From the NCBI GenBank assembly GCA_015493685.1, contig WGCS01000312.1, positions 1 to 43,445 of the forward strand: 43,445 nucleotides of DNA, in the 5' to 3' direction. The number at the start of each line of letters is the position of its first letter. Position 1 is the first letter of the stretch. Positions 38,299 through 42,896 of this stretch are shown piece by piece. Source of the DNA: Bacteroidales bacterium. Its GTDB lineage: Bacteria > Bacteroidota > Bacteroidia > Bacteroidales > UBA1556. A model generated the notes under the pieces. It did not search any database. It was not told the DNA's origin and saw only the letters and a program-made list of their open reading frames with translations. The translations under genes and the position numbers were made by a program.

Positions 38299-39285
38299 TT
38301 ATTTTATTTTCCAATCAATATTTATTAATCTTTCGGATATTGTTTTTAAGGTTTTAAAAATTTCATTTTCTGTTGGTAATTCTCCGTAAACCAATTCTTT
38401 AAAACTACCACTATAAGTATTTTTTAGTTGTCTCCAAGTGGCTTCCGGTTTCCGAAATAGTAATGATGAAACAGGATGCTCTTTTAACCATTCATTGTTA
38501 TTTTTGAAACTTAATACATCATCATTTCCTACTTTTTGTATCATATCATCAAAATCAGTCGAATTGAAAAATTCATTTAATGATTTGTCCGTTAGCAATA
38601 TGTGAATGTCATATATGTGCCTGATTTTATTGTTTAGGTCTTCAATGGGGTTTTCAGAATATGAAAATCTTACCAAGCTCATAATCTTTTCGCAAATTGT
38701 TCTTTGCGGACTTAAAACATTTACTTCAAACGGGTTCATTTCATATTTATCAATAAGTTCTTGCTGTTTCATTTCTTTCATCATCTCATAAATCATTGAC
38801 GAAACAGTTCCTTTTTCATAAGGCTCATAATTACCAAGCCAGCTTGATTCAATGACAATAACGTTCCTTATTTGTCCGAATTTTCCACTAAATTGTTTTT
38901 CATAAGAATGTGCTGTTTTTCGTATCATTCCCTTTTTATTGGTTATTCCTTCAACTACTATTTCAGGAACAATTTTTTCAACACACTTTGAAATTGTTTT
39001 AAGTTTCTTTTTTAATTGATTTCCTGTTTCACTTGGATTCCTAGATACAACAAGATCAATGTCTTCTGAGAATCTTTTTATTAAGTTGTTACATTTCGAT
39101 AATGCTGTTCCCCCTTTAAATATGGTCTCTTTACCAATCTCACTCTCAAATACAGTTTTCAGTATTAGCGTTACCCAGTAATCCTTTTCAATGAAAATTT
39201 CCTTAATATTTTGCTGTTGCGCAGTAGCAATTATGGCTTCCTGAAAGAGTTTATTATTTGTATGAAGTTTCATTTTATTTTCCAA
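38299..39285 (-). CDS. AbiEii/AbiGii-type nucleotidyltransferase toxin
   Basis: Nucleotidyltransferase motif IFKGGTALSKCNNLIKRFSEDIDLVV, preceded by EKDYWVTLILKTVF typical of AbiEii. Confidence 0.92.
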   Translation of the reverse strand: MENKMKLHTNNKLFQEAIIATAQQQNIKEIFIEKDYWVTLILKTVFESEIGKETIFKGGTALSKCNNLIKRFSEDIDLVVSRNPSETGNQLKKKLKTISKCVEKIVPEIVVEGITNKKGMIRKTAHSYEKQFSGKFGQIRNVIVIESSWLGNYEPYEKGTVSSMIYEMMKEMKQQELIDKYEMNPFEVNVLSPQRTICEKIMSLVRFSYSENPIEDLNNKIRHIYDIHILLTDKSLNEFFNSTDFDDMIQKVGNDDVLSFKNNNEWLKEHPVSSLLFRKPEATWRQLKNTYSGSFKELVYGELPTENEIFKTLKTISERLINIDWKIK

Positions 39286-39995
39286 TTTTCAACTGGCTTC
39301 AAGATGTCTGTATTTAATCCAAACGAATATTCGGACAATGGATTTAAACTGTCTTGCAACTTTTTAAGATTACTTTTTTTGTCAATTTCTTCTAACATGG
39401 CACCAAGCAATGCCCGTGTTCTCGGGGGATAACTCAAACTATAATTTACAAGTTTCTCAATATCTTTTTTAGTCATTTTTTTTAGAATGTTCAATAATAC
39501 TTTTATCCCGTTTTCTATGTCCAAGTCTGGTATCTTATTGAAATCTTTTATTGCATCCAATATCTCGAGATATGGAAAATTTCTGTTTGTAACTTCCACA
39601 TAACTTTTTGCGGGTTTTATTTTAAGGTTGGTTTTATTTACTTTTATCTCTTTCTTTTTGCTTGCAATCTTAATTATTTGAGGTATCTGCGTAGTTAATC
39701 CTAATTTATTATACAAGTATATACCTGTTATGTAGGCCACACGCTTTCCATTATTAAACAGATAAGGTTTTAATATCTCTTCATTGTTCGGTAGCAACTC
39801 TCCAAAAACAGTTTTCTTTGGTTTATAAAAAATCCCGGGCGATATTCTTTTTATCAAACCTTTTTTTATTAATCGTTCAATTGCTTTAGCCGCTGTTTGG
39901 TACTCATCTTTCTCAATAGATAATTGCTCATAAGTGAACGTTTCACCCTCTTTAATATCTATTAATTTCTGTTCTATTTTCTTTGCAATACTCAT
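39270..39995 (-). CDS. AbiEi-like / DUF6088-type antitoxin
   Basis: N-terminal winged-helix (GETFTYEQLSIEKDEYQTAAKAIERLIKKGLIKRISPGIFYKPKKTVFG); overlaps the AbiEii start by 16 nt. Confidence 0.82.
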   Translation of the reverse strand: MSIAKKIEQKLIDIKEGETFTYEQLSIEKDEYQTAAKAIERLIKKGLIKRISPGIFYKPKKTVFGELLPNNEEILKPYLFNNGKRVAYITGIYLYNKLGLTTQIPQIIKIASKKKEIKVNKTNLKIKPAKSYVEVTNRNFPYLEILDAIKDFNKIPDLDIENGIKVLLNILKKMTKKDIEKLVNYSLSYPPRTRALLGAMLEEIDKKSNLKKLQDSLNPLSEYSFGLNTDILKPVENWKIK

Positions 39996-40248: not shown

Positions 40249-40398
40249 ACTGCGGCAGGGATAGTAGCGGCAGCTCCCAAAACAAGGCATACTACTGTAG
40301 TTGGCGAGAAAAAGCTGTTGGGACAGCAGCTCTTTTCTCGCCTTTACGAAAGTATTGAATTGCTTTGGGACTATAGCGAATAGCCCGTCCGTCCGCCC
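40249..40398 (-). ncRNA. candidate structured RNA or dispersed structured repeat downstream of the DUF2279 gene
   Basis: GC-richer segment in an AT-rich intergenic region. Outer pairing (minus strand) GGGCTATTCGCTATAGTCCCAAA ... TTTTGGGAGCTGCCGCTACTATCCC; internal long hairpin GGCGAGAAAAGAGCTG-CTGTCCCAA-CAGCTTTTTCTCGCC (40342-40303). Confidence 0.5.
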
Positions 40399-40418: not shown

Positions 40419-41330
40419 CTAATAATAAATGGGGTGCACAATGAGTCCTTTGCTGCCAAACTCCAATGCCGGTGTGGGAAATTTAAGGAAACTAATAATA
40501 TTAAATAGTGATTTAAGAAATTTTGAATGTGTAGGAATACGGTTCCAGTCGACATCGAGGGCAAGATAATACTGGCGGCGGCGTGTAAATTGTGGAATTG
40601 GTTTGGCTCCCGTATAATCATTTGAGAAGCCTCCAATCATGCCATCAACACCATAGCCTACTGCCACATTGAGCCATTTGGGAAATCGGCTCTGCTTATT
40701 GAGAAAGCTGTAAATATTAGCACTCAGCCAGTAAGTCTGACCATTATAATCTTTAAGGATTCGCTCGGCATAATTACTCCCCAACACATTGGGCCGGTAC
40801 TGAGCATAGGAGGTAAGATGAAAACTAAAGCGCATGGATATTCGCTGCTCTTGCCATAGGGCCGCCTGCGACATATATAGCCCTGCACCCATAGCATTGG
40901 CCGTCATATCACCCCAAGAAAAACCCCAATTGCTACTATATGCATCAAGCATTTCGATGGTAGTCAGATACATAAACCCTAAACTGCCCCCAAGCCAGAT
41001 GGACTTTTTGTGGGACACTCCTGACCAGCGAAGCATATCGTACCCCACTTTACCAATAAAATAAGAGGTGGTGGCATGGCCAACTTTATCCATCTGCAGC
41101 CACTCCTTATTATCGTTGAAAGTATGCCATGGACTTTTGGGATAGTTACTATACCAAGCATAATTGAGTCCAACTACTGAAGCAGCCCATAGTCCACCTT
41201 CAATACCGGCGACTGCATATAATCGCTTGTTGTGAATGACAGTATCAGAAGGTAAAATCTGCGCTTTGAGATTCTGAAAGACAAATAACAGCATTATTAC
41301 GGACCACAGATTGAGAATATAATATTTCAT
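40419..41330 (-). CDS. DUF2279 family protein
   Basis: Signal peptide; 'WHTFNDNKEWLQMDKVGHATTSYFIGKVGYDMLRWSGVSHKKSIWLGG' and 'EMLDAYSSNWGFSWGDMTANAMGAGLYMSQ' characteristic of DUF2279. Confidence 0.85.
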   Translation of the reverse strand: MKYYILNLWSVIMLLFVFQNLKAQILPSDTVIHNKRLYAVAGIEGGLWAASVVGLNYAWYSNYPKSPWHTFNDNKEWLQMDKVGHATTSYFIGKVGYDMLRWSGVSHKKSIWLGGSLGFMYLTTIEMLDAYSSNWGFSWGDMTANAMGAGLYMSQAALWQEQRISMRFSFHLTSYAQYRPNVLGSNYAERILKDYNGQTYWLSANIYSFLNKQSRFPKWLNVAVGYGVDGMIGGFSNDYTGAKPIPQFTRRRQYYLALDVDWNRIPTHSKFLKSLFNIISFLKFPTPALEFGSKGLIVHPIYY

Positions 41331-42278: not shown

Positions 42279-42896
42279 ATGAGTATATTTCATTATTTTT
42301 TTGGAAACGACAAGCAAAGGGCAAAATTTGTATTTAACTTTATTGCACCACTTTATGGTAAAATTGATCAGGCAATACAAAACGATTATGCTAAAATATG
42401 TAATCAGCTAAACACTGCTATTCCATTGAAAGGAAATTCTGTTTTGGATATTGGCACAGGCACAGGAGGTTGGCTTGCCAGCATTGGTAAATATACTCAG
42501 GGAGAGCTTGTCGGGGTTGACTTTTCGACCAAGATGATTCATCAGGCAGAGAAAAATCATCCCAGTATAAAATTTATCCATAGTGATGCAGAAAACCTGG
42601 ATTCTTTTGCCGATAATTCGTATGATATTGTTACCGCCTCCTTTGTACTCCATGGGATGAAAGCTCCGGAACGGGCAATAGTAGTGAAAGAGATGAAGCG
42701 AATAGCCCGAAAATATGTAATGATACAAGATTTTCACAAGCATACTGCCCCTGTAATTCAATTTTTAGAATTTATGGAGAGAAGTGATTATAAAAACTTT
42801 AAAAAGAATTTTGTTGCTGAGATGGACACAAATTTTGAAAAAACTAAGCTGGTAGAGTCAGCGAGTGGGAATGCTGTTTATGTTGGTTTATTGTAA
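42279..42896 (+). CDS. class I SAM-dependent methyltransferase
   Basis: Motif I VLDIGTGTGGWLASIG, ELVGVDFSTKMIHQAEK, DAENLDSFADNSYDIVTASFVLHGM. Confidence 0.9.
   Translation: MSIFHYFFGNDKQRAKFVFNFIAPLYGKIDQAIQNDYAKICNQLNTAIPLKGNSVLDIGTGTGGWLASIGKYTQGELVGVDFSTKMIHQAEKNHPSIKFIHSDAENLDSFADNSYDIVTASFVLHGMKAPERAIVVKEMKRIARKYVMIQDFHKHTAPVIQFLEFMERSDYKNFKKNFVAEMDTNFEKTKLVESASGNAVYVGLL

Follow-up and report, generated by a model that had tools for sequence, protein, structure and literature searches.

What is the non-coding block that follows the DUF2279 gene at this locus? The window, i.e., the whole stretch of 43,445 nucleotides analyzed here, carries this gene at positions 40419-41330 on the minus strand (Pfam E 2.8e-11). 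A first-pass annotation had described, immediately behind its stop codon, minus-strand arms enclosing a long hairpin and had proposed the block as a candidate structured RNA or dispersed structured repeat. The block was confirmed at 40252-40398 (+), about 20 nt from the stop codon, and reading of the sequence as well as the predicted fold agreed with the described architecture. Read on the minus strand from the DUF2279 side, it shows TTGGGCGGACGGACGGGCTATTCGCTATAGTCCC, the long hairpin and then GGGAGCTGCCGCTACTATCCCTGCCGC at its end. The folding energy of the plus strand was -61.3 kcal/mol as compared to -44.4 (sd 4.6) for shuffled sequences (z -3.7; 0 of 200 shuffles as good), and the minus strand reached z -3.6. 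Folding as DNA was likewise far better than that of shuffles for both strands. The 21-nt arm TGCCGCTACTATCCCTGCCGC occurs once within the window, with a chance expectation of 0. On its other side, the element is flanked by an AbiEi-like/AbiEii gene pair; these DUF6088/AbiEi-like and AbiEii genes (38299-39995, minus strand), located about 250 nt from the element, possibly constitute a toxin-antitoxin pair.

Comparison of the element with its own genome by BLAST revealed many partial matches, with conserved arms but a non-conserved middle. A scan with the arm pattern identified 27 places in the genome (13 on the plus and 14 on the minus strand) and none with the reversed control pattern; a covariance model scan found 26 copies, among them the window copy. 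The middles of 18 inspected copies ranged from 28 to 258 nt, the latter being the longest in this genome, and were mostly unrelated in sequence, yet paired beside the arms. Among the copies viewed, no extended version with a gene in its interior was seen. The repeat part of the initial description is thereby substantiated.

The first-pass annotation had also given an arm consensus, GGGCTNTNCGCT / GCCGCTNCNATCCC, which proved correct, and had guessed at the Flavo-1 family (RF01705). This guess holds in substance, with the reservation that the window copy itself is not matched by the Rfam model (76 positions; gathering cut-off 42 bits) even at E 10. Four other, shorter copies of the genome exceeded the cut-off (C122, 50.3 bits; C309, 46.0 bits; C271, 43.3 bits; C232, 43.2 bits) and aligned across the entire model; arm-pattern matches from a wider sequence collection also exceeded the threshold. 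The missing match is probably due to the length of the variable stem; the middle of the window copy measures about 99 nt, and the 76-position model misses it. A covariance model, R1, built from 16 copies of other genomes and excluding the source genome, matched window positions 40252-40398 (+) with 35.2 bits and E 2.8e-6 and also yielded the 26 genomic copies; arms and pairing are thus common to the window copy and to copies from other genomes. The next best match, at 42654-42710 (+; 14.5 bits, E 0.35), lies inside a methyltransferase gene and is probably due to chance. Both arms, their order, the strand and the pairing core are those of Flavo-1, whereas the Rfam structure lacks the closing stem P1 and the side hairpin P2 found here. 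These results support the assignment of the window block as a long-stem member of the Flavo-1 family.

The fold of the collected copies has three parts, P1, P2 and a long arm, P3, whose internal loops are conserved and whose tip is free to vary. On the Flavo-1 strand, the window element reads 5' GCGGCAGGGATAGTAGCGGCA ... CTATAGCGAATAGCCCG ... CCGCCC 3' over its entire length (40252..40398, +), as indicated by the R1 match and the fold z of -3.7. The first conserved arm, GCGGCAGGGATAGTAGCGGCAGCTC (40252..40278, +), recurs about 27 times in the genome. It is followed by the variable stem-loop (40279..40365, +), which was delimited by the folds of the 18 copies and by BLAST and has one related copy elsewhere, on contig C187 (71% identity). 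The second conserved arm, GGGACTATAGCGAATAGCCCGT (40366..40388, +), pairs with the first by AGCCC/GGGAT including the covarying X-Y pair, and the 3' side of P1 (CCGCCC) occupies 40389..40398 (+), judging from P1 covariation and from comparison with the copies of G042, G056 and plasmids. As compared to these full-length relatives, P2 is shrunk to a short linker in the window copy.

Covariation was determined in the collected copies. Two positions of P1 (GCGxx/yyCGC) were Watson-Crick paired in 109/119 and 101/119 cases, respectively, with 42 and 34 in shuffles. The X-Y pair of the arms (CGGGCTx/yATCCC) was Watson-Crick in 145/147 copies, with all four types present (shuffles: mean 50, maximum 70) and a wobble in only 1/147. 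An alignment of 16 sequences agreed on the covariation of P1 and of the arm pair, slid controls being far lower; on the Flavo-1 strand, GnA-type internal loops can be read from it between P1 and the arm pair. Furthermore, mismatches in the variable stem outside the conserved collar were biased, with 24 A.C versus 9 G.T (20 versus 4 when counted by element) and 30 C.T versus 7 A.G. An A.C mismatch on one strand corresponds to G.U on the Flavo-1 strand; this bias fits one strand only, so a single strand seems to fold. Inclusion of the conserved inner collar reversed the count (93 G.T versus 25 A.C), which we attribute to an inherited T.G in the collar. From the count outside the collar, the Flavo-1 strand, i.e., the window plus strand, is likely, though not proven, to be the folding strand. 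Shortened copies lacking the inner hairpin were observed at L069-L071, L135 and L484 (about 1455-1500), as if deleted between short GGGCTTTCCGCT repeats of both arms.

A pattern scan of species genomes gave, among the matches listed, mostly Bacteroidota and Spirochaetota. Copy number was patchy and ranged from 0 to 541 per genome, with 541 copies in Foetidibacter luteolus, 330 in a Treponema MAG, 158 in Weeksellaceae MIP2422 and 1-3 in several other species; the reversed control gave 0. In a phylum sample, an exact match was present in 12/148 genomes, namely the source genome, 11/36 others of the same class and 0/111 of other classes. Plasmids of Bacteroides, Phocaeicola, Parabacteroides and Moraxella harbor the element, and so do viral contigs (phages). 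The 2010 description had named Bacteroidetes; Spirochaetota, Moraxella plasmids and phages extend this range. Up to hundreds of copies together with the presence in plasmids and phages argue for a spreading mobile element more than for an ordinary sRNA gene. Several viral contigs (L204, L213, L232, L269, L278 and others) have a related GC-rich layout, GGGCG..CGGGCTTTCG..CGAGCC..CCGCTTCAATCCCTCGCGC, which in several cases comes just past a stop codon or is translated as the last part of an open frame; the three of these loci scanned had no Rfam match. In a Treponema MAG (L147, 577-737), the beginning of a Flavo-1 match is overlapped by a match to TD-2 RNA.

Rfam classifies Flavo-1 as 'Gene; sRNA', and the strand-biased fold and its covariation would suit a true sRNA or cis-regulatory RNA transcribed from the plus strand. 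The original description (Weinberg et al. 2010; PMC2864571) presents Flavo-1 as a likely RNA that occurs in Bacteroidetes and shows no signs of cis-regulation. A study of the F. psychrophilum transcriptome places some Flavo-1 matches within 5' transcribed regions, but reports matches in sense and antisense alike and many outside transcribed regions (PMC9723704). None of the published passages found to name Flavo-1 or RF01705 proposes a function, and a literature search with sequence strings of the element returned nothing relevant. In a diverse set of copies, the orientations of neighboring genes showed no preference (++ 18, -- 21, +- 17, -+ 13), as expected if the element is independent of transcripts. 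The swing in copy number between species and the near absence of wobbles at the X-Y pair also speak against such an RNA. The transcriptome data and the neighbor orientations count against an ordinary sRNA or cis-regulatory RNA, which we regard as unlikely; support for the initial description does not extend to its structured RNA part.

In Weeksellaceae MIP2422 (G056), the arm1 side pointed toward a gene 3' end in 29/37 copies, and 18/37 copies were located between convergent genes as compared to 25/124 background gaps. Of the roughly 26 elements on viral contigs, 12 were found 12-54 nt behind a same-strand gene that encodes a protein of 530-580 aa, two of the twelve being from near-identical phages. 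In PDB, a profile of this protein matched only terminase large subunits of phages (E 0.004), and one member matched the terL PHROG (E 8e-4); the protein is probably, not firmly, terminase large subunit-like. Viral contigs with the element directly behind such a divergent gene include L228, L195, L202, L227, L251, L270, L280, L284, L285, L288 and L229. At several of these loci (L228 etc.), the element is followed by a long non-coding region in which CATATATCC and GAGCGGGTCGGT-like motifs recur. The terL-like proteins are 20-64% identical to the first of the set, which suggests that the site has long been kept. A 3'-end or transcription-termination element of the upstream gene would account for the setting in Weeksellaceae MIP2422 and in phages; however, the T-tract on that strand precedes the hairpin instead of following it, and this bias is absent from the diverse set. 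Either role is very improbable.

On Bacteroides plasmids, the element is retained at one site; on pBF9343, p5482 and relatives, it is located upstream of ArdC-like genes, and on pBF9343 it follows a recombinase gene. An Acinetobacter indicus plasmid (L487, 2500-2690) carries, amid antirestriction genes, a distantly related element that shares the GGGCGTTCCCCTTCGGGTCGGGC start and the CCCTAACGC end. Such positions, together with one-strand folding in which the folded strand is the ArdC template strand, would be consistent with a single-stranded DNA site of mobile elements, either a primer start or a ssDNA promoter in the leading region of conjugative plasmids, with the chromosomal copies as offshoots. 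In this respect the element resembles the STAXI motif (RF01728), found near ssDNA-binding and antirestriction genes, as a possible single-strand DNA structure close to antirestriction genes; no Rfam match to STAXI was obtained in any plasmid locus scanned. Yet the element had no ArdC-like neighbors on the H26 and H40 plasmids or at the inspected chromosomal loci, and phages carry it in a different setting. We give this explanation little credence. The fixed site on Bacteroides plasmids and the phage site behind terL-like genes nevertheless look like a retained function there, which counts against mobility.

Flanking T content and target-site duplication were analyzed in three genomes. On the minus-like strand, the element starts with GGGCG and finishes with CGC, and its 5' side is T-rich, with T up to 93% in the source genome. 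The duplication that marks DDE-type MITEs was not found: no clear enrichment was detected in 93 copies, the best z being 2.6 among many tries. Many Foetidibacter copies (L463-L482) have a further common 3' tail, GGTGGTGACACAG, and the copies of Weeksellaceae MIP2422 (L443-L462) a weaker one; the sequences suggest that these tails may be carried-along flank. Some single-strand transposons favor one replication strand; no such preference was observed here (18:19 and 19:21). Empty sites were not obtained; flanking synteny is not conserved within the genus, and related Bacteroides plasmids keep the element, one of them in a version without the inner hairpin. Conserved ends, a variable paired tip and one-strand folding are also properties of a site for a tyrosine recombinase reading folded single strands. 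Integron attC sites of this kind carry RYYYAAC/GTTRRRY (R'/R'') boxes. Reading of the sequence found no such boxes at the ends of the element; moreover, the element ends in a three-way junction, and its copies are dispersed, with no cassette arrays seen. An attC-like site is thus extremely improbable.

Three candidates for a mobilizing enzyme were inspected in carrier genomes, and none was linked to the element. The Flavo-1 element shares with REP/REPIN sequences and their transposase TnpA-REP (RAYT) that it is short, intergenic, structured, of high copy number and patchy between species, and that it has a variable middle. Y1 (RAYT) transposase genes were present in 18/18 genomes searched, but those REP-type genes that were inspected were not bounded by the element, in contrast to REP/RAYT systems. 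For RAYT subclass 2.6 of Bacteroidetes, 'atypical secondary structures' have been reported (PMC6006769). The Treponema MAG of L147 contains a multi-copy unit with a Y1 transposase (L357-L366), which is about 0.9 kb long and has ends of its own. Genes of 23S-IVP (four-helix) proteins are multi-copy in many carriers and not flanked by the element. Reverse transcriptases were of different kinds and not flanked, and one carrier genome that has 26 copies lacks them.

Weighing these data, we consider it probable that the Flavo-1 family is a non-autonomous, gene-less mobile structured repeat, REP- or MITE-like and moved in trans, rather than an sRNA gene. Counted in favor are dispersal with conserved arms, bursts in some lineages, copies on plasmids and phages, conserved pairing, the mismatch bias toward one strand, even orientations and boundaries without duplication; counted against are the lack of a linked mover, of an empty site and of a replication-strand preference, and the reversed mismatch count with the collar included. 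A trans-acting enzyme would recognize the conserved arms in single-stranded form, either as ssDNA or as an RNA copy, and would join the element without target duplication beside T-rich tracts, often behind gene 3' ends. The tip would vary because only its pairing ability matters. Mobility itself, the single-stranded intermediate and the T-tract as target are each what we infer. As a more tentative and rather doubtful extension, Flavo-1 and its relatives might form a single superfamily of mobile repeats which fold as single strands and cross phyla on phages and conjugative plasmids, with a mover from an enzyme class not yet tied to any such repeat.

Flavo-1 has been listed for years as an sRNA without function and has been puzzling in transcriptome work. 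P1 and P2 in the fold, the covariation, the likely folding strand and the wider host range go beyond the Rfam entry. Should Flavo-1 prove to be a mobile structured repeat, many 'sRNAs' annotated in Bacteroidota would be misfiled, and the enzyme that mobilizes them would await discovery.
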